A DNA stretch of 64,000 nt from Halichondria panicea. Lineage: Eukaryota > Porifera > Demospongiae > Suberitida > Halichondriidae. This document shows, in pieces, positions 12,410 to 50,700 of the stretch. Under the pieces are notes generated by a model. It was given only the letters and a program-made list of their open reading frames with translations. It was not told the DNA's origin and did no database searches. Where the stretch lies: assembly GCF_963675165.1 (NCBI RefSeq), contig NC_087380.1:3649803-3713802 (forward strand). The letters are read 5' to 3'. Position 1 is the stretch's first letter, and the number at the start of each line of letters is the position of its first letter. The position numbers were made by a program, and so were the translations under genes.

Positions 12410-13685
12410 TATGGGGTGCCGTTTGTGTCAAAATGCTGATTTTATCCACTTATGCAGAAGTACACTGACTTATACACAAGTGCACAGACTTATACCACAA
12501 GTACACTGACTTATGCAGAAGTACACTGACTTATGCAGAAGTACACTGACTTATACACAAGTACACTGACTTATACACAAGTGCACAGACTCATACACAA
12601 GTACACTGACTTATACATAAGTATGCTGACTTATACACAAGTGCACTGACTTATACATATAACCTGACTTGTATACAAGTACTTTCACTTATGCACAAGT
12701 ATGCTGACTTATACACAAGTATGCTGACTTATATACAAGTACACTGACTTATGCACAAGTGCACTGACTTATACACAAGTGCACAGAATTATTTTAACTT
12801 TTAACCTTTAACCCTTGCACTTACAGAAGCTCTGTAAACATTACTAAGAACAGGCTAGGCACATGCATGTACAGGCAGAGTCAAGGGGCAGACAATAGTA
12901 ATGTTTACAGAGCTTCTGTTAAGAGTTGTAGCAGCTTGAAAATTGCATTAGTAAACAGGTTTAAAGCGTTTGACAATACTTGCACATTTACTTGAAGATT
13001 CTGTCATGTCTCTAGTCTATAGAACAACCATGTGCAAAGGGTTAAAGGTTAAAGGTTAAATTAATTTAGCACGTGCACTTGTGTATAAGTCAGTGTACTT
13101 GTGCATAAGTCGGTGCACTTGTGCATAAGTCAGTGCACTTGTGCATAAGTCAGCATACTTGTGCATAAGTCAGTGCACTTGTGCATAAGTCAGCATACTT
13201 GTGCATAAGTCAAAGTACTTGTACAAGTCAGGTTATATGTATAAGTCAGTGCACCTGTGTATAAGTCTGTGCACTTGTGTATAAGTCGGTGCACTTGTGT
13301 ATAAGTCTGTGCACTTGCGTATAAGTCTGTGCACTTGCGTATAAGTCGGTGCACTTGCGTATAAGTCGGTGCACTTGTGTATAAGTCAGTGTACTTCTGT
13401 GTAAGTCAGCATACTTGTGTATAAGTCAGTGTACTTGTGTATAAGTCTGTGCACTTGTGTATAAGTCAGTGCACTTCTGCATAAGTCGGTGCACTAGTGT
13501 ATAAGTCAGTGTACTTGTGTATAAGTCAGTGTACTTGTGTATAAGTCTGTGCACTTGTGTATAAGTCAGTGCACTTCTGCATAAGTCAGTGTACTTGTGG
13601 TATAAGTCGGTGCACTTGTGTATAAGTCAGTGTACTTCTGCATAAGTGGATAAAATTAGCATTTTGACACAAACGGCACCCCATA
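12410..13685. mobile_element. Palindromic minisatellite element with terminal inverted repeats
   Basis: The ends are near-perfect inverted copies of about 54 bp (TGGGGTGCCGTTTGTGTCAA at the left, its complement at the right). Inside, about 12,440-12,790 is a tandem array of a 20-bp unit (ACTTATACACAAGTGCACTG) and about 13,065-13,650 is the same unit in the opposite orientation, with more copies (roughly 17 against 29). The centre holds a further palindrome (ACAGAAGCTCTGTAAACATT / AATGTTTACAGAGCTTCTGT) and AACCTTTAACCCTTGCA-type motifs. GATG flanks both ends and may be a target duplication. No protein is encoded. Confidence 0.85.
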
Positions 13686-13828: not shown

Positions 13829-16535
13829 TTAGTGTGGTTTTGAGTCTGGGGAGTATGCTTTTGTGGATCGCTTGCGAGGTTTCGGCAGTGGTGGTGGTGA
13901 GGATTGGGGAGAGGGGAGACGAGCTCGCGGTGATCGAGAGGGAAATTGGTCACTCTGTAGGTTGGGGGGTGGTTGTTGGAGGCTTTGTACTGGAGGAAAC
14001 TGACGAGATGGATGCTCGCTTGATATGGAACTAAAGTGTGTACGGCATGGCTGCTGTCTCGATGTGAGAGGAGAAACTTCCTCATATGGTAATGGAGGAA
14101 GCTGACGAGATGCCTTTTCATAAGGTGGTGAAGGGGGAGAGGATGGGAGTGATGGTAGTACTGGAACACTAGTAATATCATCATCATCATCATCATCTGT
14201 GGGAAAGTTCCTTAATGGAGAGTCAGGCTTTATCCAAATGCCATAGTAACCGGTTTTGAAGTTCCCACTATAAAAATAAATGATATGTGAGTTCACACAA
14301 AGCTACAGGCTATAGCTATGTACAGCAGGACAAGGTAGGTTACTACATTACCTGGTGCCTAGTTTTCTTGTTGTCAGCCCAATGAATACGGAACGAATGA
14401 GCTTTCCAAAGACCGCTGCATTGACAGGATTGATACTAAATGTAGCACAGTGCCTCAGGTAATGATTATAAAGTGTTTTCTTGGAAACATTGCAGCCTTC
14501 AGAAGCTTCAAAATTTTCACAAAGCCATTGGATCTATGAACACAAAGATCAGATAAAGAGAGGATCAGTTATTAGCAACAACAAAACAACAGACTTAGTT
14601 ATGTTTTGTGTGAGGCTTCTGAACGTTTGATATACCTATTTTATACAAACTTAAGTCAAATTGACATTGACAGCAGTACGTAAGAACAACTTACAGTCTG
14701 TGAATGGATTTTGTAAGCATATCGCATTCCCATCTGTCCTTGTTGAGCATCTGCGGACACAAGCTTACCGGACCTGTATTGCAACAACATACTAATTCAT
14801 TTGGTATAATTATGACGATCACTATGCCAGACATGAGAGTGTGACTAGGAGCGATCATGCTCCAGCTTGGAGTGATCATTATTTTGCTTAATTAGTGTGT
14901 GCTTTGCCTTACTTGACTAAAGATGAGTACGGTCCAGAATCATTTCCCGAGAATGTAGCGCAGAGTGACGTATACTGATTGGCATCCTTTACAGACACTA
15001 TAAAAATCACATACAGTCATATTTTTATGCTTGTCAAAAATTAATTTACCTGAACCAGGATCTGCAGATGAAGAAGTTTGGAGTCGTCCTTGAATCCAAT
15101 TCTGTCGGATTTCTTCTCCAGTGCCGTACCCACTCTCCCCTGTCACATCAGTAGCTTCTTCTTCATTTGTAGGGAGATCAACTTCTGTATAAAGTATACA
15201 TAGTTGAAAAAATAATACAAGCGTTGTGCAGATCCTATAAGTCCTACACCTGGTACGTGGTATAGTCGAGCAACAATAGAAATTACCTGCTAATATACGT
15301 TTAGTAGAACCTTTCCTTCCAGATCTTATAGTAACGATACCATCTAGGTCAGAAAACTTCGCTAATGACCTGGACTCATCTTCCTCTTCATCAATGGCGC
15401 CTAATCCGAATCGGCTCAATTCTATTAACTGAGCATCAGAAATCGGCAGAACGTTTGTAGCTATTGAAACTGGAATAGAAAATGTTAGGAATACACATCC
15501 CTTTTGAATAGATTCTAATGACAAAGCCCAAGAATTTATGTGCAAGGTCTTAGCTATACGGTTACAGAGTATAGTTATCTGCTGCAACATAATGGGACCT
15601 TCTTCAAAGTATTTCAGAGCAAACTTTGAGTGTTTACTGTCCTCGTTTTGACCAGGATGAAACACAGCGTGTGGCACTTCGAACACATTGTGTTTACAAT
15701 ATGAATTGAACTCATCCAAGTACTTTTGCATTTCGCGTTTGTCTTCTGATGACCCATATTCATTCACGACTAACTCTATAGTTTGATGATTGAAGAAAGA
15801 AGCCCTTTCCAGTAGAAGAATCATAAGCACTTGAGTCATTGTCTTCGAACTCATCAGCTGCATCTTTTCTTCTTTTGAAAAGATTGCAGAGGCTGATAAG
15901 AAAAGCTTAACACTATCTATTTCATCTTTGAAAGCTGGGGACTTCGACAGTGACAAGCAGAGCTTACGAAATGCACTCACAATTGATTTGTAATCAGTAG
16001 TTAACTTGTCGAGTAACATGTGTTTCTCTGGCTCACTTAAACGTTTAGTATCGAGATAAGGAAAAGTTGGTGAGCTAATACTAGGAGTTGTTTTCTCTGC
16101 TTTTTCTTGCGGACATCCAGACATGAAGAAATCTTCTAGAGTACACTTCTGACAGTATGGGCACACAAATCCTGGACCTTCACTTTCTTCAGAACTTACG
16201 AGTTGCTTCCCTTTGTAACATTCCTCGACTTTTCTGGTACAGTCATGCATCCATTCACCTTGACTCCTCAAAACAGCAATAAAATCTTCAAACAGTGCCG
16301 GTCGAGACTTTACCCTACATTCTACAGCACTGATAATTTTTCGAGCCCTAATAGAAGGTTCTGAGCCGGGGCCAACCTGTTTCAAACTTTCATATTCACT
16401 CTCTGATAAAAACCATTTACTATGGAATTCATTCCCCATATTGTCGATATTTCCTTTAATTGAGTCGATGAGTAGTACAGAACACTCTACAATCGTCTCC
16501 CATTCTGGCGATGCTTTTTCACGAGACGTATCCAT
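13829..16535 (-). CDS. CARD-like / RFX-domain fusion protein, copy 1 (722 aa)
   Basis: Exons 15287-16535, 15050-15184, 14913-14997, 14695-14773, 14352-14533 and 13829-14267 join in phase to 723 codons (ATG 16535, TAA 13829). Aa ~5-100 resemble a CARD (LLIDSIKG, FLSESEYESLK, IRARKIISAVE, LFEDFIAVLRSQGEW). CPYCQKCTLEDFFMSGC (~aa 125-141) is a possible zinc knuckle. Aa ~150-400 is a conserved helical region of unknown fold. Aa ~517-598 is an RFX winged helix: IQWLCENFEASEGCNVSKKT, LYNHYLRHC, NPVNAAVFGKLIRSVF, LTTRKLGT, then SGNFKTGYYGIWIKPDSPL. In the wing the usual GNSKYHYYG reads GNFKTGYYG. The tail is acidic, then proline-rich. RFX proteins bind X-box DNA; joining to a death-fold module is unusual. 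The RFX call is firm and the CARD call is by motif only. Confidence 0.85.
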
Positions 16536-17411: not shown

Positions 17412-20047
17412 TTAAATTTTTTGTTGCATTCTCAGCTTGCTAGGTTTTGGAAGTGTTGGAGGCGGACGACGAGAGGGCTTACGAGCTTTTGGTAGTCTAA
17501 GAGGAAATTGTTCATTTTGTAGATTGGGAGATGGGAAGGACAACTGCTGAAGGAACGATTGTGGGAGACGCTTCAGTACTTGAGGGAGCTTACTAAATGT
17601 AGATGGCAGCTCACTTTGTAGAGAATGGTCCGAGGGATGATATGACTGCTGTACTGGTAGAAGAGGCGGTTGCATTTGATGATCAGATTCCTCACTTGGT
17701 AGTGGAGGTAACTGGTAAGCCAATTCCTCACTTAAAGGCTGACAAGACAGTTTTTCATTTGGTAGCGGAAGAGGGGAGGATAGCAATGGTGATAGCACTT
17801 GAACTTCAGGCATCTCAGTCTCATCTGTGGGAACGTTGCGTAAGGGAGAGTCAGGCTTTATCCGGATGCCATAGTAACAAGTTTTGAAGTTCCCACTACA
17901 CATAAAATTATAAAGATAAAGGAGAGGTATTTCACTATAGAAGGTATTACTTCTATATACTTTACCTGGTGCCTAGTCTTTTTGTTGTCATCCTAGTAAA
18001 CAATGAGTGAATGAGTTTTCCGAACACTGCTATAGTGACAGGCTCCATACTTAACGCAGTACAGTGTCTCCGGTAATGATCATAAAGTGTAGTCTTGGAA
18101 ACATAGCAGCTTTCAGAAGATTCCAAATTTTCATGAAGCCAGTGGAACTTTTATGGGAAAATTAACCAGATGAAAAGTAGGTGTTGGAAAAAATACTATA
18201 GCTATATTAAAGTAGATTTAGGAATATAACGTCAAGAACCATGCAAGACATACTGAACTCAAACATGACAAAAATACAATGTACCGTCTGCGTCCTGAAA
18301 GCGTATCGCATTCCCATCTGCTGTTGGAAAGCATCTGAGGACACAAGCTGGTTTGACCTGTATAGCATGTAACGATAGGAGGAGGATCACTCTGCCCGAC
18401 ATGCAACATGAGACTGCATGCTCTTAGGGATACACGTATATAGTTCTCCAGAGACTGAGTGCATGCATGTGTTTGGCCTTACTTGACTATATATAAAGAT
18501 TCGTATGGTCCAGAATCCTTTTCTGAGAGTGTAAGAAGTGGCGTATACAGATGCCAGTCCTTGATAGACACTGCATAATTATTTCAGACGACTAATAAAG
18601 TCCTCCATTGCCACAAATATTTACCTAAGTCTGAATCTGTAGACAAAGTGCTTTGATGTCCTTCACCAATCCACTCCTGTAGGACTGCCTCTCCAGTGCC
18701 GTATCCACTCTCCCATGTCACATCAGTAGCCTCCTCTTCATTATCAACTTCTGACAATATAGAAATTATAAATGTTGCATGCGTTTTGAACATTAGAAAT
18801 ACCTGCTTTATATAGTTCATGTTTGGTAGAATTTTCCCTGTCGAGCTTTAAAATAGTATCGTCAGTAGTATTCGAAAACTCTTCTAACGCTCTATCATCA
18901 ATGGCACCTAATCCATATCGGCTCAATTCTGTCAACTGACCTTCAGAAATTGGTAGAACATTAGTGGCTATCGCAATAGGGATGGCAAATGTTACGACTA
19001 TGCACCCCTTTTCAATGGATACCAATGACAAAGCCCAAGAATTTATGTGCAAGGTCTTTGCTATACGGCTGCAGATTTTAGTTATCTTCTGTAACTTAAT
19101 GGGATCTTCTTCAGAATCAGAGTATTTCAGGGCAAAGTATTTCGAGTGTTCTCTGTCCTCGGTATGACCAGGATGAAACACAGAGTGAGGTACTTCGAAC
19201 ACATCGTGTTCACAATAAGACTTAAACTCCTGCAAGTATTTTTGCATTTTGTGTTTGTCATCTGATGACCCAAATTCATTCACGACCAACTTTATAGTTT
19301 GATGATTAAAGAAAGAAACCCTTAGTTGAAGAATCATGAGCACTTCAGTCATTGTCTTTGAACTCAGTAGTTTCATCTTTTCTTCTTTTGAGAAGATTGC
19401 AGAGGCTGATAAGAAAAGCTTAATATTTTCTATCTCATCTTTCAAAGCTGGGGACTTGGACAGTGCCATGCAGAGCTTACAAAATGCACTCACAATCGAT
19501 TCATAATCAGTAGTTAACTTGTCAAATAACATGCGTTTCTCTGGCTCACTTAAACGTTTAGTATCGAGATAAGGAAAAGTTGGTGAGCTAATACTAGGAG
19601 TTGTTTTCTCTGCTTTTTCTTGCAGACATCCAGACATGAATAAATCTTCTAGAGTACACTTTTGACAGTACGGGCACACAAATCCTGGACCTTCATTTTT
19701 TCAGAACTTACGAGTTTCTTCGCTTTGTAACATTCCTAGACTTGTTTGGTACAGTCACGCATCCATTCACCTTGACTCCTCAGAACAGCAACAAAATCTT
19801 CAAACAATGCCGGTCGAGACTTTACCCTACATTCTACAGCACTGATAACTTTTCGAGCCCTAATAAAAGGTTCTGAGCCGGGACCAATCTGTTTTAAACT
19901 TTCGTATTCACTCTCTGATAAAAACCATTTGCTACGGAGTTCATTCCCAATACTGTCGACACTTCCTTTAATCGAGTCGATGAGTAGTGAAGAACACTCG
20001 ACAATCGTCTCCCACTCGGGTGAAGCTTTTTCACGAGACATATCCAT
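17412..20047 (-). pseudogene. CARD-like / RFX-domain paralog, copy 2, with two lesions in exon 1
   Basis: It has the same six-exon plan as copy 1: 18803-20047, 18625-18750, 18483-18570, 18285-18357, 17966-18147, 17412-17895. The start ATG (20047) and the CARD-like part are intact, but a TAG stands at 19736-19738 where copy 1 has GAG, and a 1-bp deletion near 19,693-19,701 shifts the frame just before CPYCQKC. After that the frame is open to the exon end, and exons 2-6 are clean. The RFX region (FHWLHENLESSES, LYDHYRRHC, VFGKLIHSLF, SGNFKTCYYGIRIKPDSPL) is more diverged in the DNA-contact helix than copy 1. Either a recent pseudogene, an assembly or allelic error, or a gene using an internal start that drops the CARD. 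Confidence 0.7.
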
Positions 20048-21107: not shown

Positions 21108-21974
21108 ACTAATTGTAAAGGCCATGCACCAAGGGGCAATATGTTATAGTTATTGACTGATTTATTTACTGCAAAAACAGCAAAACAGTCATTTGAACAT
21201 CAGTGGAGACAGTCAAGCTTGCTCTCACAGCCTCAGAATATGCAGTTGAGAACAGCTACATGGCATAGAGCTATACTGTATAGAGCTGCTGGTTCAGCTG
21301 GAAGCCATACATTTTGACCATGCAGACCAGCCCACCACCACTACATGCAGCTGCATGCAGCTGGCTGAGGTTTGCTCTTGTTTGTTAGCTAGCTAGCTGA
21401 GTAGTCTTACCTAGTCTGTTAGGTTATTGTCGACAAAACTACAACCTACTTGCAATTCTCTACCTCTGAGCCACAGCCTTGACTACTGAAAAAGCACAGA
21501 GCAAGAATTTGACTGCAGGCCTCATGAACATGGTAGATCTAGCTCAGTTCAATCCTGCACTATTAAATTTTTTCAATTTCATTGGTGTACACACATAATA
21601 TATTGTCAAGATGCTTCATGTCAATTCAAATCTGCTGAGGAAGTAAGATAATAAGAATAGTGCCTGGGGGAAGTAATTAATCACTGGACATCACCTAAGA
21701 TACAAAGTGAATCAGTAAATAAACGATTAATACGCATGCTGACACAGCAAGAATAGAACAAACATTATAATAATTTTACATTTCTGTCTGCGGCTATATA
21801 TGCAGCATGCATGCATGTGTAGCATAATTATATCTCTAGTATAATTATACGAAACTATACTTGTAATAATTAATATGCATGAAGACACCTTTTAATTTCT
21901 GCATTAAAGAGCTTACAATAATTTAATAGACATGCATATACAATCAAGATATAGCGTAAAAATAATTATAGAGA

Positions 21975-24900
21975 CTAAGAGAGCAAGGCTGCGTGTACAG
22001 GGTATTTTAAGGTGGTAGTGAGTCTATGGTTATGCTCTTCTAAAGAGTTCTCTTTGTAGAAAAAGACCAACTCCTCCAGGGAGTTTGAAGTACACGGGAG
22101 AGAGAAACCATATTTATTATTAAGAGTGAACACCTTCAAGTGGATAAGGCCATTATACCTGTGGGGTGTGCATGTGTGTCAAAGATTAGCACAGTCTTTA
22201 ATAAACACAACAAGACGTTGTAGTATACAGAAGCCTGTAATTATAGAGGTCGAATGAAAACTATATGCCCAAGAGCAGGATATATATACAGCTGTATACC
22301 GTATAGCGTGTAATTTTCGGGGGACAAAATATTCGTAGTTGAGCAGTATTTAGTCATTTGTGCATATTATTTTCGTGGTTGCTGCTTGCACTGCAGGTAA
22401 AAGTAGGCAAGGTCGCTTCATTCGTGGGTAAAATATTCGTGGTCAGACCTTCAACCACGAAAACCACGAATATTTTGCCCCACGAAAATTACCCTCTATA
22501 CGGTAGTAAACATAGACCTTTCCTGTGGTTGGAAAATAGAGGAAGTTTGAGGAAAATAGAACACAGTCAAGGGCTTAAAATCGAATAATTGTAGCTGCCA
22601 CATGCAGTTGCAATGCGAGTACGCTCGATCAGTGGAGTATAGGACTAAAATATTGGGGAGCCTATAATTATGTGGCCCCCCTGTTCCTACTCCACTGCAG
22701 CTATAAGTGTTTTAAGCTTCTATAGCCATGCTCTATAGCTCTTGAATTTGATTAGCAAATCATTAATTATAGGCTATAATTATATACATATTGCTTACGG
22801 TTACCAGTACTTAAACTTGAAGGTCAACGTTGCTATTCTACTTATATAGGAGTTTTAGCTCTACACCAGAGCGCTATAGCAACTGCTAGAATGATAAAAG
22901 AGCTGCAAAGCTGCACTAAGCAGCAGTTGCAATGCACAGTTTTCCGATCGTACTATAATAGCTCACATAATTTATGGCGGATATTATTTGCCAACGATAT
23001 CCTCAGAAATGCTTGTCACAAATGGTGCAATCTGATAGGTTACTGAGAGGTCCCTTATGAAAATTTATGTTTCAAGTCATAGCAATGATGATGCAGTGCA
23101 TTAAGTATTTTTGTGTTCTGCAGTGCAGCTTTGCAGCTTTTGTCTTACTCATGCAGCTACCAATAGCTCCTAGTGTAGAGCTAACTACTAAGACTCAGTG
23201 GCGTAGGCAGAGGGGGGCTGACGGGGCTAGAGCCCCCCTTTTGTGCGTAGTTACTAGAATGATGTCATTCAATGGAAATGTGGGCAAGGCCATCTACTGC
23301 ACTAGCCTCGATTCCAGGCTGAGTTATTTCTAGCTAGACCGACAACTTCGTTTTATTAAAAAAAAAATCAGCCTGGGATCGAGGCTATACTACTGCGCAT
23401 GCTTACTGCTGATGAAAAAGTGATTACCTTTTTTTTAGGTAAAATTGCAAGCTATTCAGCGCCTGCTCTGGCCCTGCTCAACGGATTTGAGCCCTGCCCT
23501 TCCCAAAATCCCGGCTACACCACTGTAAGTAGAATAGCAACTTTCTATTAGCAGTTTTTGCTATGCATGATTCTCAAGAGACAGAAACCGGCGGCCTTCA
23601 GTGTGAGTTTTTTTTTATATAGACTAGCCAGAGTGAAGCTTAAACATTGCTTGCAGAGTCTTCTTTGTGTTAATATATAGCCTAGCTTGCTTAGCACTAT
23701 TCTAAATCAGGCCTCGTCCAACGGTCACTGTGGGATTATGAGACCTCAGGCCCTTAGTAGCGCCCTCGCTGTGCTTGGGCCCTCGGGGTCTCATAATCCC
23801 ATAGAGACCTTGGACTCGGGAGTGCATTAACTAATTACAATACTTTTTGTTCACAGTAAGACATGCATGCACGTCTATAGAGATTTACCCATGAGTCTCA
23901 AGTATACACTCACATTATATAGAGGAAGTACGCGTGCATACTGAGCACTATAATTATACATGGGGACAATATATGTGCGTACGTACTAAGTTTGTGCATT
24001 ATAGGGAAAAAGCACTCACACAATGTCAATGCTGTGAGTATGTAGTAGCTGCTCTCCCTTCGGCAATAACCATTGGTTAACAGTGGGCCGACAAAGGAAG
24101 GTACCATTCTCTTTATTCCTCAATAGCTCACTAGCCATGTGCCTATAAAGGGGGAGGAAAAAAACTGTAATACTAAATCGGTACAGAGTGTGGAGCAAAA
24201 GCATACTAATTTTCTATAGCTGCATGCATCTTGACCATTATTTTAGCTAACATAATTATTAGACAAGTATACAATACAGGTTATAGGCTCACCTGTCTAC
24301 CTCACAATACCATGTCTCCCTTCTTAAGTGAGTGTTAGATGCCCCCTACAAAGAAAAATTATCACATCTCTGAGAACAAGATGCTGATAGAACATTCATC
24401 CTGTATGTGCACTGGCATTATACAGAATTAATTTTATACACATTTAGCTTATCTATATAAACTCACTGAGAACAAAAGACTTATTTACATGCATCTATTA
24501 ATTGTTGTTATCTATTGCATTATGTAGCTTATTACCAGGACCTCAAGAAAGAAGAAAATTGATTCTTCCAGGATCTGCAACCATTGAGCAGTTACAGCTG
24601 CAACAGACACACACGTACACACACACAGTCAGCTTTACCGTATCGTTCGTGCGGCTACGCCTCGAAACATAATTAGAGCACTGAAGTGCTAACCCTCGGC
24701 TATTGACATGAAAATTGCTAGGATTGGCCGGGAAAAACGACTCGTAAACGAAAAAAGTACATGTGAATGATGCTTTTGGTGGTTCCTCTGGCCAATCCTA
24801 GCAATTTTTCACATTTCAAATGTTTTTCTAGTCGGATATCTAGATGATTGGGGAGAGTTGGTACCATTGGTTAATTATCACTCTCAATTCTCAATATCTG

Positions 24901-27514
24901 CATGGTTGTCATTTTCTTACAAACGCCAACACTAGTACTCACCCCCGCACCTTTTGTATACCCTCTCAAAGTACACACACACACACACACAAACGGGCCG
25001 ACATGCAGAGCAATCATTATACCCCTGCAGCGTATATCTGCATTTGCACACTCGGGATAACTATTTACATGCGATCTTGAAGTGACAGCTATATATGAAG
25101 TTACTTACTGATACTGAGTAGAGTATTTGATGTGTTGGTGTTGTAGGTAGTGGGGGAAATGGTTTATCCTCTCTATCCGGTCGAGGAGGCCGTCTGGGAA
25201 GGATGCCCCTATGATTACAGGGGGGTAGTTTTAGGGTAAGCAAACTCAGCTGTATGTCTGGCAGTGGTGGGAGTGCCCTTTGACTATAGGAGTGAGTGGG
25301 AAACTGGAAATACTGGGGCGAACAATTTTTTTTGGGAGTGGTGGTGCAGTATTGGGAACTGATATGAGGGAAACAAGATCAATAGTAACGGTTCACTTGG
25401 GGCAGTAGTGTTTGATTGTATCACAAACTCTATTTATACATATAGCTATAAGCTCTTTAATCCCATTCTAATCTAACCCACCGAGTCAGAATTGAGTTGG
25501 TTGTGACAAAGCGTTAAATAGAAGGTATTTACATGGCTGCATGTGCATGCATGGGTCACCGGGGTGTTCCTATAATTATATAGAGTATATGTGTGTAGCT
25601 TCAGCCGACTGTTTCACTTGTAGTCGTCTTTACTCTATGTGCATGTTGACAGAACTAATCTGAGCTGACCAGGATTCAATCAGGATTAAAACCTCGTGTA
25701 AACACGGCTATAGAGAGAATGGTTAAACCTATTAACTTATGGACTAAAGTAATATAATTATACGTAAAATAAGTAGAATTGTCTCTGCAGCTTCAAGAAT
25801 ATGGCACCCAAACATACCACGCCTGAGAAATATAATGCAGTACAAATGAACATTGGCAGGCAGCGTTGCTGGCCACGGTGCTCTCAGAATGCTTATGTCA
25901 TGCTCTTTAAACTTCGTATGTATGGCCTTACTTGACAGATGTGTACGGTCCAGAATCAATTTCTGAAAATGTAGCAAGCAGTGGCGTATACTGATTGGCA
26001 TCCTTTACAGACACTGTATTTCAGACAAATAAAATAATGTATAGTCCTAAATTGCCAAAAAACAATTTACCAAAGTCTGAATCTGCAGACACTGACATGC
26101 TTTGGAGTCCTCCTTGGATCCATTGTTGTCGAACTGCTTCTCCGGTGCCATACCCACTCTCCCCTGTCGTGTCAGTAGCATTCTCTATAGTAGTAGAAAT
26201 GCCAACTCATATATAATTATAGAAGGTACAGATAACAGTATAAGTTAGCCATTGGTATACACGTACCTATCAATTCTTAGATTATAGAACTTCACTTACT
26301 CAATACATACCTGATTCATATTCTTCTGTTGTAGCAACTTTTCCATGTGAGTCTTCTAATGCACCAATGTCTTTATCACCACCTAATCCGTATCTGCTCA
26401 ATTTCATCAACTGAGCTTCAGAAATTGGCAAAACCTCAGTAGCTATCGCAATAGGAATGGCAAATGTTAGGAATACACACCCCTTTTCAATGGATACTAA
26501 TGACAACGCCCAAGAATTTATGTGCAAGGTCTTCGCTATACGATTACAGATTTTATTTATCTTCTGTAACATAATGGGACCTTCTTCAGAGTATTTTAGG
26601 GCAAATGTTGAGTGTTTAATATCCTCGTTTTGACCAGGATGAAAGACAGCGTGTGGCACTTCGAACACATTGTGTTTACAATACGAATTGAACTCATCCA
26701 AGTACTTTTGCAATTCACATTTGTCATCTGATGACCCATATTCATTCACGACTAACTCAATAGTTTGATGATTGAAGAAAGAAGCCCTTTCCAGCAGAAG
26801 AATCATGAGCACTTCAAACATTTCCTTTGAACTCGATAGTTGCATTTTTTCTTCTTTTGAAAAGATTGCTGAGGCTGATAGGAAAAGCTTAATATTATCT
26901 ATCTCATCTTTTAAAGTTTGGGACTTGGACAGTGTCATGCAGAGCTTACGAAATGCACTCACAATTGATTCATAATCAGTAGTTAGATTATCAAGCAACA
27001 TGTGTTTCTCTGGCTCACTTAAACGTTTAGTATCGAGATAAGGAAAAGTTGGTGAGCTGATAGGAGGTATTTTCTTTTCTTTTATTTTCGGACATCCAGA
27101 CATGAAGAAGCCCTCTAAAGTACACTTTTGGCAGTACGGACACACAAATCCTGGACCTTGACTTTCTTTAGACCTTTTAAATTGCTTCGCTTCGTAGCAT
27201 TGCTCGACCTTTTCGGTACAGTCACGCATCCATTCACTTTGACTCCTCAAAACAGCAACAAAATCTTTAAACAATGCTGGTCGAAACTTTACTCTATCTT
27301 CCACGGCGCTGATAATTTTTCGAGCTCTAATAGAAGGTTCTGAGCCGGGACCAATCTGTTTCAAACTTTCATATTCACTCTCTGATAAAAACCATTTGCT
27401 ATGGAATTCATTCCCAATGTTGTCGATATTTCTTTTAATTGAGTCGATGAGTAGTGTAGAACACTCGACAATTGTCTCCCATTCGAGCGAAGCTTTTTCA
27501 TGAGACACATCCAT
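21975..27514 (-). CDS. CARD-like / proline-rich / SH2 protein, paralog copy 3 (~680 aa)
   Basis: Exons 26311-27514, 26071-26184 and 25932-26013 are paralogous to exons 1-3 of copy 1 (CARD-like start, CPYCQKCTLEGFFMSGCP knuckle, helical region). No RFX exon follows. The next open exon in the right phase is 25109-25358 (proline-rich: RALPPLPDIQL, LPRRPPRPDREDKPFPPLP). It is followed by an optional 33-nt exon 24542-24574, then 24293-24345, 24020-24142 and 21975-22158, which encode one SH2 domain: TWYCEVDRHMASELLRNKEN, GTFLCR with the phosphotyrosine-binding Arg, then KYGFSLPCTSNSLEELVFFY and LKYPVHAALLS before TAG. The SH2 most resembles those of PI3K p85. Phases close to 2,043 nt. The alternative is two genes: a truncated copy 3 and a separate SH2 gene whose start I cannot find. 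Confidence 0.62.
22297..22506. mobile_element. MITE of the CGTATAGCGGG family, copy 3
   Basis: Inverted ends ACCGTATAGCGTGTAATTTT and AAAATTACCCTCTATACGGT, with internal TATTCGTGGT / ACCACGAATA pairs. It lies in the last intron of the SH2-containing gene. Confidence 0.75.
23196..23525. mobile_element. Short element with CAGTGGCGTAG-type ends
   Basis: Left end CAGTGGCGTAGGCAG, right end CCGGCTACACCACTG. CAGTGGCGTAGC-type termini are common on hAT-like non-autonomous elements. It contains an inner inverted pair (GCCTCGATTCCAGGCTGA / TCAGCCTGGGATCGAGGC, 23,306-23,388). Confidence 0.6.
24710..24815. repeat. Short inverted repeat
   Basis: AAAATTGCTAGGATTGGCC and its complement GGCCAATCCTAGCAATTTT flank about 65 bp. 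A related motif (TTTCCTGGCAATCCTAGCAA) occurs near 30,047, suggesting a dispersed family. Confidence 0.55.
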
Positions 27515-44700: not shown

Positions 44701-47700
44701 CCTTGGTTCCAGAAGCAGGCCGGATAAGTGAATATGCCGGGTAATCGAATAGATAAACCACACCTTGATCCACTCACTTTATTGATGAACAGCAGTGCCA
44801 CATGTTGTCTGCGCATGCGCAAAAGAAAAGCAGGCATGTCTCCATGGTAACAGCTGCAACGCGCATGCGCATTTGAGGGACACGCCCATTTTCTGAATTA
44901 TGTAATCTGATTAAAAAGAAAACTGCCAAGCCGGATAATCGAGGTTCCGGATAATCGAGGGCCGGATAATCGAGGTTCTACTGTACTGTATTGTGTACAA
45001 CACGTGTAGGGATTCAACCGTGTAGGGATTCAACCACTTAAGTGACTCTGCAAAATTATATGGAAATGCGGTCATAACCACTTACAAAACGTGATCCCTG
45101 TATCAGCCACTCCTTAACTTATTTATGGGCTCCTGACGTCATGCATGCATATACGTGTCGATTTCGAAATGTATACTCTTAAGCCAATAATATTTTCAAT
45201 GTGGAATATCAAGAAAGGCTGGCGGTTGTCAGGCATTGCCATGCATGCAGGTATATGTTTTTGTATGTTTCCCAGAATCAGCTATAGCAAAACTTCTAAG
45301 TAATAAGCTCACTGGGAAGACTCGTCTAAAACTGTGTTATAGAGCCATGTCAACCAAAGCTACCGCAGCACAGCTTTACTTGGAGAACTCCCTCCTGCAG
45401 AAAGATCATGCAGATCAATTGATGAGCATGCTGAGTGTCCCCTATGGTGGACTGGTCCTAGACCTTGGCTGTGGAACTGGCCATCTTGCTACCATTTTGT
45501 CTGACCTTGTGGGACCTGAGGGACAAGTTGTTGCTGTCGATCCTGATGCAGAGAGAATCAAAGTAGCAAAGAGAGAGAATTCACGACCCAACATCCAATA
45601 CTCTGTCGCAAATGACCAAACATTTCCTGGGAAAAGTTACGATCTGATTGTCTCAACACATGTTATTCACTGGATCAAGAACAAACAAGCTCTTTTAAAC
45701 CGTCTCTACAGCAAACTTGCTCCTGGAGGAATTTTCGGCTTTCTTACTTATGATGGCACTCCAGAATACCCACAAATAGTTAGCAAAGGCCTAAGTGTAT
45801 TAGTTTCCCCCAATTTTGAGAAGAATTTGAAATACAGGGTTTTGCAGAATCTTTGAAATAGAGGGTGTAGAGCGTTCCTTATATGGATATCTAATGTTTA
45901 CACATTGTGGTGTCATATACACATTGTGGTGAAATGCCAAGTCTGATTGGGAAGCAAAATTCAAAAACAAAATGGCTTTTTCTTGTGAAAAAAGCTGACC
46001 AAGGGGATATAAGGTGGAGAATAGTGCATCAGACAGAGCTGCTTGGACTGTCTTATCAAAGTGTTGCTGAGAATCTTCAAATTGATCCATCAACTGTTTG
46101 GAATAGTGCATTGTTGACATGCTGACTAAGATCTACAACTTTATGGTTGACCACAGATAACCTTATAAGGAACGCTCAACGCAAAACGCTTTTTGTGGAT
46201 ATTGCAAAGATTCTGCAAAACCCTGTACACAAGAATGAATTTGAAACGAAAGAATCTTATCATACCCTAGCCAATTCAGCTGGATTTAATGTTGCCTCAG
46301 CTAAAGTTGTTCACAAAGAGTTGACTTTTGTAAGTGTTGATGAGTTCTTAGAGTATTGGTCGGGTGTGTCTCATGGTGACTTCAGTGTCAGCGATGTCGA
46401 TGAGATGAAACTTAAAATCTTTAAAGAAAACCACGAGAAAGATCTAGTATCAAACCCGATAAATCTTGAAACTCTTTGCTTCGTTGTGGAAAAGGTTTAA
46501 TCTAGTTGTGCAAACTTGTATAGTTTGTATATATTGCTTAGGACAGTCTATGGAAAGAACATTACATACCACCATGTGTATGTCATTTATCTTTAATGTT
46601 TCTACTGTAGTGAAAGTATTTGCTAGAGTTGATGTCCATTCATTTTGACAGGTTACTTATGGCGCTATAATTATTAGTTGTATATTTTAACGGTGGAAGT
46701 ATAATAATTATGGGAGGCGATTCCCGCCAATATAGCTCTGTTTTCTTACAGTGCAACAACCAAAGAGAGTAGAACTTTTGTTTTTTTACGTTTTTGTGTA
46801 TATCTTCTAAACTAAATGTGATTGGATCAATTTGAGTGCAGGTACTGAAAGTTCAACTATTGGCGCTTCCAGTGGACCACCACCTGTTACATCATATGAC
46901 ATCATTATTCCAAAATGGCTGCTAGAATATGTGTACATTGGAAAATATGTTAGGCATGGAACTATCTTATATGTTTGAGTTAAGATCTGAAATTTGTTGT
47001 GCAAGTACTTCATTACCTTGCACATCTTTTGAGCTCCAGCGGAAGTGCAGGCTGTTAGTAGGTTCTGAGATACACAGAATTTTGTAAATTTTTAGTAGCA
47101 AATGTGTTAGGCATTGATTTTTTGAGTTTGTGCTAGTTAAGGTCTGATTTTTGAGGAGCATGTACTACAATAGTATACTTTTCATTTGTACTAACTTACA
47201 GGAGCTAGACCAGTCTCTTCTTTGCTAGAGCGGCCCTTCTTGTCAAAAATGGTGATTTTGCTCCATTTTGCTGCTCTTTGCCTGTTTTTGCTAACGTAAG
47301 CAATGATATTCATTGATTTGTGACATCACAAATCATCTTGTCTTTATTTGCTACATCCAAGCTCATGTGATGTCTAACCTGGCAACTACACCCAGTTGAC
47401 AGTCATAATGTGTCACAGGGGCGTGGCAATTTACACTATTACGCAACAGAAACCAAGAAAATCAACAGACAATATCCAATAAAGTACCGTATATATGAGT
47501 GCATAATACCATCTATATAAAAAAAAAGATTAGCAAATACTGGCTTCTCAGTTTGGAAATACTAACTTCTAGTATGCTATTAGCTTGCATCACTCGTTAG
47601 CTCTGCATTAGAACGCTATAGCTATTGGTAGCTGCAAGAGTGAGAAGAGAGTGCTTGGTGCAACAGCCATTAATTTTGGACTTCGGACGTTTGGTATCCT

Positions 47701-50700
47701 TTTTAGCAACAATCATGGCCGATTATTTCCCACTCTTCGAGTTTCCCTGCATGCAGCAAAAATTGATGCTAATTATTATGTGTGCATTAGCAACAGCTAG
47801 TACTTTGTTATGTATAGCTTTGACACATCCACCGAGGCGCCAGATGTTGTAAGACAGGAAGTGCTACAAGTTGCCTCATGAATATATTAATGAGAACAGG
47901 GTTTCTGATAAAAATAAAGGTTTTTAGAGCTATCTAAGTTGAAATATGCAATAAGAAGACAGTTTAACATACGAGTTAATACATTCCAATTTGTCTCCTA
48001 GTAACAAGTTCTAGTTCAGTAAATGGTCTGTGTTACGAGCTTTGGAAATTCAGAAAAATCACCCTTACTACTATCTGGCAGAGTTTGTTGGGTGTCATCA
48101 TTATGAATCTCATTATATAATAATATACAGTTTTGTACATTTTGCTGATATAATTTTTTGTGAAATGTCGATCTGGATACATTAAACAAGAGGGCGGCCA
48201 ATTATTTGTGAGTACTAATTTTTACTCCCATTCGCAGAAATAGCAGAAATTAATACACGCGAAAATATGTCACCTTAAGGTATAGTGTTGTGTGAGGTCA
48301 TCCTTATGAAACCATTAAAATACTTGAGGTATACTGTCTTGTCGGGTGTCTTAGGGCAGAAGACTGAATAGTAAAACTTCTAAAGGTCAAGAATTCTCAC
48401 TGAAAAGATCATCCAAAAACGATTTAGAGCCATGTCAACCATCAAAGCTATCGCAGCACAGCTCTACTTGGAGAACTCTCTCCTCCAAAAAGATTATGCA
48501 GATGAACTAATGAGCATGCTGAGTGTCCCCTATGGTGGACTAGTCTTGGACCTTGGCTGTGGAACTGGCCATCTTGCTACTATCTTGTCTGACCTTGTGG
48601 GACCTAAGGGACGAGTTGTTGCTGTCGATCCTGATGCAGAGAGAATCAAAATATCAAAGAGAGAGAATTCGTGACCCAACATAGAATACTCTGTCGCAAA
48701 TGATCAAACATTTCCCGGGGAAGGTTACAATCTGATTGTCTCAACACATGTTATTCATTGGATCAAGAACAAACAAGCTCTTTTCAACCGCCTCTATAGC
48801 AAGCTCGCTCCTGGAGGAAGTTTTGGCTTTGTTACTTATGATGGCACTCCAGAATTCCCACAGATAGTTAGCAAAGGCCTAAGTGCATTGGTTTCCCCCG
48901 ATTTTGAGGAGAATTTGAAATACACAAGAATGAGTTTTGAAACGGAAGAAACTTACCATACCTTTGCCAATTCAGCAGGATTCAATGTTGTCTCAGCTAA
49001 AGTTGTTCACAAAGAGATGACTTTTGTGAATGTTCACGAGTTTTTAGAGTTATGGTCGGGTGTGTCTCATGGTGACTTCAGTGTCAGCGATGTCGATGAG
49101 ATGAAACTTAAAATCTTCAAAGAAAACCACGAGAAAGATCTTGTATCAAACTCGATAAATCTTGAAACTCTTTGCTTCGTTGTGGAAAAGGTTTACTAGC
49201 TATTGCAAGCTTGTATTCAATATAATTATAATACTTTGTGACAATAAATTTATGTGTGAAAGAATATTGCATGTAATTTTGTCATGCACTATAATTATCA
49301 GTTCCATAATTATACGTCAATGGTGGATATAATTTTATTTTATGAAGTGCACTTTTCAAGTATTTGGAGTATACACGGTTTGTTACAGTTAAGCCGCCCT
49401 CGAATGCCTTTAATACTTTAGATTACCGTTGACCTATGAGGTATAAAGAAGATAGCGGGCACTTGTTGCAGATCCTATATCCTTCCGATGATACATCTCT
49501 CGTGTCGTTTGTCATATGTATATATATGCGAGCGGTTACCATATCGCATATATACTTTTATTCGAGCCTTGTACAATGGGATTGCGGTGTCTTATCGCAT
49601 AAATAATTATACCGCATTACGTTTTCAGGGCCTTTAAACTGGTCAAGTATGATTTTATGCACGCATAGAGAGTGTTTGACCTTGTGGGACCTGGAGGACA
49701 GAGTTGTTCTTGTGAATATCGATCATCAAAAAATTCCTCACAATGCCATGAACAGCTATGTATAGACAATTACGCATTCGTATCACTACATTGCAATTTG
49801 ATGGTTACTCGGCCCTTTTGTTAACATCAAAGATAAATGTCATATAGGCTTTGCAGTATCACAATACAACATTCTTGTCAATTTACTAATTACCTTATTG
49901 TTTTGGACCTCTTTTGATGACATAAGTATCGATTTCGGCATCAATTCTTGACCCCACACATGCAGACATAATAATATATTCAATGTGGAATATCAGGACC
50001 GGCTGGCAGTTGTCACGCGTTGACATACAGGTATTTTTTGTGTAGGTTTCCCAGAAACAGCCATAGTGAAGCTTTAATCACAGCTATGTCAACCATCAAA
50101 GCCATTGCAGCACAGCTATACTTCGAAAACTCTCTCCTCCAAAAAGACCATGCAGATCAATTGATGAGCATGCTGAGTGTCCCCTATGGTGGACTGGTCC
50201 TGGACCTTGGCTGTGGAACTGGCCATCTTGCTACCATCTTGTCTGACCTGAGGGATGAGTTGTTGCTGTCGATCCTGATGCAGAGAGAATCAAAGTAGCA
50301 AAGAGAGAGAATTCACGACCCAACATTCAATACTGTGTTGCAAATGACGAAACATTTTCTAGAGAAAATTACAATCTGATTATCGCAACACATGTTATTC
50401 ACTGGATCAAGAACAAACAAGCTCTTTTCAACCGTCTCTACAGCAAGCTCGCTTCTGGAGGAAGTTTCGGCTTTATTACATATGATGGACCACCCAGTTA
50501 TCCACAGATAGTTAGCAAGTGCCTAAGTGTATTGGTTTCCCCTGATTTTGAGGAGAATTTAGTATACACAAGAATGAGTTTCAAAACGAAAGAATCTTAT
50601 CATACCCTAGCCAATTTAGCTGGATTCAATGTTGCCTCAGCTAAAGTTGTTCACAGAGAGTTGACTTTTGTGAGTGTTGATGAGTTCTTAGAATAATTAT

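Follow-up and report, generated by a model that had tools for sequence, protein, structure and literature searches.

A tandem gene copy in the sponge Halichondria panicea that probably captured the four 3'-terminal exons of a PI3-kinase regulatory subunit gene

The copy 3 gene

The DNA considered here, called the window below, is a 64,000-nucleotide stretch of the Halichondria panicea genome (contig NC_087380.1) that carries three tandem copies of a gene with a common N-terminal module, the head. In copies 1 and 2 the head is followed by exons for an RFX domain, while in copy 3 it is followed by a proline-rich stretch and an SH2 domain of the type found in p85, the regulatory subunit of PI3-kinase. 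A gene model based on splice motifs (AG/GT introns) resolves copy 3 into seven exons on the minus strand, from 27514 to 21975, which join into a single frame of 669 amino acids:

26311..27514, minus strand: exon 1, the head, with a CARD-like N-terminus, a CxxCxxC-x9-C site, a helical part and a TRADD-N-like C-terminus
26071..26184, minus strand: exon 2 (ENATDTTGESGYGTGE...), common to copies 1 and 2 and in the same order in NCBI model P0009
25932..26013, minus strand: exon 3, with a phase-2 exit; an equal border precedes the RFX exons in copies 1 and 2
25109..25358, minus strand: exon 4, proline-rich, counterpart of the p85 exon before the cSH2; phase 2 in, 0 out
24293..24345, minus strand: exon 5, start of the p85-type cSH2 (ETWYCEVDR), by homology to p85 cSH2
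24020..24142, minus strand: exon 6, SH2 with GTFLCR, by homology to p85 cSH2
21975..22158, minus strand: exon 7, the remaining SH2 and the stop, by homology to p85 cSH2

The codon bases to the left and right of the six borders are 1/2, 1/2, 2/1, 0/0, 2/1 and 2/1, and all joins are in frame. An earlier note made from the letters of the window had listed the phases as 2/1, 0/0, 0/0, 2/1, 2/1; the recomputed borders differ from this in part, while its statement that each join is in frame stands. Downstream of exon 7, ATTAAA occurs at 21927 and 21896. The note had also taken exons 1–3 to be paralogous to copy 1, which is borne out by heads that are 84% identical over residues 1–379 and by exons 2–3 that match in all three copies. 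Its reading of the later exons as a PxxP-rich stretch and an SH2 domain holds as well: exon 4 contains two +xxPxxP and two PxxPx+ motifs, and a PDB search with the SH2 finds PI3K regulatory subunit alpha (p85 alpha) at an E of 1.4e-19.

The tail and its donor

Describing this tail as a p85-like SH2, as the note did, is correct as to kinship but understated, since the last four exons match the 3' end of a resident p85 (PIK3R) gene that was recognised by its Pfam domains and by the tail match:

C4:1.807-1.817 Mb: resident p85 gene (L051), on the same contig (C4) as copy 3 and 1.86 Mb from it

This gene encodes RhoGAP (36.8 and 56.9 bits, in two exons), nSH2 (59.8 bits) and iSH2 (33.5 bits), all over the Pfam cut-offs, and downstream of the iSH2 a proline-rich exon and then a three-exon cSH2 (18.2 bits). 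Its last iSH2 exon has a phase-2 donor (GA/GTGAGT) and its proline-rich exon is entered in phase 2, the 2/0 phases of the latter being derived from frame and splice motifs. Exons 4–7 of copy 3 correspond to the last four p85 exons in order and phase (2 in, 0, then 2, 2). The two SH2 domains are 70% identical; that of copy 3 scores 19.9 bits in Pfam as a whole domain (15.5 for a shorter piece), a little short of the cut-off of 21. Aligned with its p85 counterpart, the proline-rich exon reaches a score of 77, compared with 42 +/- 7.4 for shuffled sequences, of which 1 in 2000 scored as high. The other frames of exon 4, with two and five stops, were rejected; the frame VPNTAPPLPKK... has a score of 40 against p85, and 85 of 2000 shuffles were as high. 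Across the genome the tail of copy 3 gave 18 matches, its own exons counted among them.

A phylogeny of the SH2 against p85 nSH2 and cSH2, the check suggested in the note, was built from 20 rows and places the window SH2 with the cSH2 of L051 and of L050, a second tail copy, with support of 99/94. Gigantopelta cSH2 joins this group too (99/95), and the human, P0013 and P0014 cSH2 form a separate branch, cSH2 overall not being one clade. The description "only p85-like" was rejected on the grouping with the resident cSH2. Branch length is 0.19 for copy 3 and about 0.17 on the p85 side, and the rate of evolution of the copy 3 SH2 is therefore close to that of the p85 domain. Between the two, dN is 0.157 and dS 0.49, giving an omega of 0.32 (Fisher p 1e-4, on rounded counts); conservation of the SH2 is about equally strong in copy 3 and in p85. 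Two SH2 arginines are invariant in a five-row alignment, one of them being the phosphotyrosine-binding Arg of FLxR (beta-B5) in GTFLCR.

Searching the window with pieces of p85 gave no RhoGAP or iSH2 (best E 0.028), and the nSH2 query matched the copy 3 SH2 exon only. The candidate that copy 3 is itself a p85 gene was rejected because RhoGAP, nSH2 and iSH2 parts are absent, and lacking the p110-binding iSH2, copy 3 should not carry PI3-kinase.

Four more copies of the tail lie close to the p85 gene:

C4:1.755-1.809 Mb: L047-L050, four p85 proline-rich and cSH2 tail copies, near the p85 gene and behind receptor genes

These receptor genes are of a sushi/transmembrane type and end like DYEELNKL...ADY (Sushi by Pfam in L050, by eye in the others). 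L050 has hardly diverged from p85 (dS 0.014), whereas L047 has a stop within its SH2 frame and L049 a frame shift in the last exon. The four loci show that the tail is readily copied and that stray tails exist.

The sibling copies and the RFX donor

Copies 1 and 2 lie further along the same strand:

15399..16535, minus strand: copy 1 head, the one compared with copy 3 above
13829..14772, minus strand: copy 1 RFX-side exons (14772-14692; 14533-14351; from about 14267) and proline-rich end
18879..20047, minus strand: copy 2 head, with an in-frame TAG and a frame shift near 19736-19700
17412..18356, minus strand: copy 2 RFX exons and proline-rich end

Copy 2 corresponds to P0009 (LOC135335266 isoform X3), which starts downstream of the TAG and frame shift, joins part of the head, exons 2–3 and RFX using the phase-2 exit of exon 3, and has its end in an intron retained after an RFX exon. 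The RFX domain scores 88.4 bits in copy 1, where the best PDB match is RFX1, and 70.2 bits in copy 2 (in P0009). Six RFX matches were found in the genome, two of which are copies 1 and 2, the only places in the window where tblastn finds RFX. An RFX1-type gene at C4:3917211, 253 kb away on the same contig, is nearest to copy 1 (69% and 72% identity in two exons), and both borders of the first compared RFX exon are common to the two; for the first RFX-side exon of copy 1, the part of the donor locus (L060) that was compared holds no clear counterpart. Both tail donors, p85 and RFX1-type, therefore lie on the contig that carries the array.

For RFX, dS is 1.34 between copy 1 and C4:3917211 and 0.29 between copies 1 and 2, the latter pair with an omega of 0.65 that is not clearly below 1 (p 0.14). 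Head dS between the copies is 0.33-0.38, and omega between the copy 3 and copy 1 heads is 0.25.

Elsewhere in the window, 20-base-pair tandem arrays in opposite orientation occupy 12448-12792 and 13073-13647, about 280 base pairs apart, and three tandem methyltransferase-like open reading frames were recognised by eye on the plus strand at 45191-50700.

The head module and its family

The head has 107 matches in the genome, its own included, which merge into about 95 loci. Nineteen members were chosen for comparison: 15 of 22 alignment rows (near-duplicates dropped), the window and three proteins. Among these, CARD passes the Pfam cut-off in one, P0011, a 41% identical relative (31.6 bits), and the window's own head has no such match. 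The CxxCxxC-x9-C site is kept in 17–18 of 18–19 members. The C-terminal part is weakly like TRADD-N, with a Pfam TRADD-like_N E of 0.014 in one member of 19 and no match at E<=0.01 in the genome search, and Gly-Cys stands at the presumed beta2-beta3 turn in 16 of the 19. In Kaur et al. 2021 (PMC8195603) this turn in TRADD-N is described as a tiny residue plus Ser, sometimes Cys. Head profiles searched against the PDB, and a search of NCBIfam, returned nothing informative. From these sequence features the head looks like an adaptor module of the Death-fold/TRADD-N type, and the label "sensor head" that the note gave it may suit it.

Next to heads in the genome are found RFX, p85 cSH2, other SH2 and UvrD-helicase, an expansion with variable C-termini. 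The note had asked whether head and SH2 occur together elsewhere, and they do: among all 107 head and 71 SH2 matches there are four same-strand pairs within 6 kb, against 0.15 expected under random placement, so the combination is recurrent in this genome. Two of these pairs come from copies of a single C7 locus, and the C6 pair has a match to the N-terminal half of the head only. The tree includes three of the four further SH2 domains; none of them groups with p85, and L052 is on a long branch. L052, L053 and L054 resemble copy 3 in having a related head and then an SH2, but differ from it in that their SH2 does not fall with p85 in the tree.

Some further observations concern the family. At L055 (C7:3338000-3347900) a head and a UvrD-helicase (25.3 bits) share one frame of 1177 amino acids, followed by long helical-looking open reading frames. 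One region, C1:14.9-17.4 Mb, holds some twelve frames related to the head, the majority about 384 amino acids long. The motif [ED]SG[YF]GTG occurs behind the head in each of the three copies in the window (26184-26071, 18736-18494 and 15161-15060) and behind the SH2 in L052 (4231-4614).

Origin of copy 3

Given the sequence of copy 3, with its open frame, its homology to p85, a donor on the same contig and the constraint on both parts, we consider it probable that copy 3 is a chimeric gene that has captured the last four p85 exons. A head-RFX gene would have been duplicated, and the duplicate would have lost its RFX exons and, by exon shuffling via a phase-2 intron, gained the resident p85 gene's last four exons in copied form, with exon 3 now presumably spliced to exon 4 (25932/25358). 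The split of RFX from its donor (dS about 1.34) precedes the head duplications, and therefore the shared ancestor probably had RFX; RFX loss and SH2 gain in copy 3 is the favoured direction, although not a proven one. The p85 tail was copied at about the time of the head duplications, the order of the two not being separable with a rough error of about 0.1 in dS. The tail swap within a tandem family that the note proposed is thus supported and sharpened to a copy of the resident p85 3' end, its direction unproven.

Several observations weigh against capture. None of the 11 head proteins found by protein search carries an SH2 annotation. Three protein matches had the tail, none of them a fusion, and no protein of the tail's size was matched; these misses say little, because the resident p85 is missing from the same searches. 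A tblastn search of the window with the p85 proline-rich exon found nothing at E<=1, nor was there a match at the DNA level, and the exon 4 frame stays open in 75 of 2000 shuffles. The proline-rich stretches of copies 3 and 1 are themselves alike (31 of 2000 shuffles as high, tblastn E 0.001), a likeness that we cannot explain beyond composition; kinship between the copy 1 and p85 stretches was rejected, 480 of 2000 shuffles scoring as high. Loci L047-L050 make a stray tail beside copy 3 conceivable, and the 573 bases that separate exon 3 from exon 4 hold three mini-exons running from an ATG to a phase-2 GT as well as one ATTAAA (25461).

The exon 3 donor holds an in-frame TAA (GTC AAG TAA), so that a head-only product is possible if intron 3 is kept. 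Such an isoform and the fused one may both be made, the tail being switched by splicing. This overlaps with capture, and we regard it as a tenable possibility: the TAA is found in the donor of all three copies, and isoform X3 of copy 2 ends in its retained intron, although that isoform may be an annotation artefact.

The same TAA could instead mark the end of a separate head gene, with poly(A) near 25461 and an independent p85-tail adaptor starting in the gap, just as the four tail copies elsewhere sit behind unrelated receptor genes. Together with the mini first exons, the TAA also qualifies the note's statement that no other start or end was seen. Two genes are nevertheless unlikely. Exon 4 lacks an ATG in its frame, is closely preceded by a stop and needs a phase-2 exon before it; exon 3, the nearest known phase-2 coding exon upstream, supplies one. 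A single ATTAAA in 573 bases is near the rate of the window (40 in 64 kb on the minus strand), and the NCBI model of copy 2 splices from the same border. Least likely is a dead chimera, in which a duplicated p85 tail came to lie next to copy 3 and both parts are without function: some stray tails are broken (L047, L049), the copy 2 head is damaged and the last intron of copy 3 contains inverted repeats, but copy 3 itself has no lesion after a dS of about 0.5, both omega values are low and its SH2 branch about equals that of p85.

With the captured tail, copy 3 would combine a CARD-like/TRADD-N-like assembly module, a proline-rich linker offering SH3 ligands and a cSH2 of the p85 type for docking on phosphotyrosine sites. 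SH2 domains of the p85 type prefer pYxxM-type sites, and that of copy 3 may do the same. Most likely copy 3 would either be recruited through its SH2 to receptors or adaptors that have been activated, so that the head nucleates CARD/TRADD-N signalling there, or compete with p85 for those sites. For the array as a whole we suggest, more tentatively, that it may be a tandem immune array in which copying of 3' exons from resident signalling genes renews the outputs, giving two head-RFX genes (Death-fold transcription factors) and one head-p85 cSH2 gene (a Death-fold adaptor docking where PI3-kinase docks, perhaps in competition). If expressed, such proteins would link a head of Death-fold type without intermediates to DNA binding or to the sites that PI3-kinase reads.

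Comparison with known systems

Copy 3 shares with the class IA PI3K regulatory subunit p85/PIK3R the proline-rich exon and cSH2, with their exon order, phases and SH2 identity, but has no RhoGAP, nSH2 or iSH2, and its head is unrelated. RFX1-type transcription factors resemble copy 1 in their RFX exons and common borders, whereas the RFX of copy 1 is joined to a head and copy 3 has none.

Another close parallel is the NCOA6 clade of TRADD-N proteins in sponges, which according to Kaur et al. (PMC8195603) has an N-terminal Death-fold, TRADD-N and variable tails including SH2, and is expanded to 357 proteins in Amphimedon. The array has in common with them the changing tails and the expansion, and its head resembles their Death-fold and TRADD-N unit; the general design is therefore known, as is domain shuffling in sponge immune-type families from the catalogues given there. 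Neither "RFX" nor "PI3K" occurs in the main text of that paper, and the titles and abstract openings of the papers listed by literature searches gave no description of a p85 or RFX tail on such a head. What looks new is the pair of tails, p85 and RFX, together with their donors and the exchange within a single array. What sets the array apart from the NCOA6-clade proteins as described there is that tails differ between tandem siblings and that donors can be named; since donor, acceptor and shared intron phase are nameable for two tails in one array, the mechanism and the order of events become testable, and copy 3 would show the exon-by-exon assembly of a new signalling protein.

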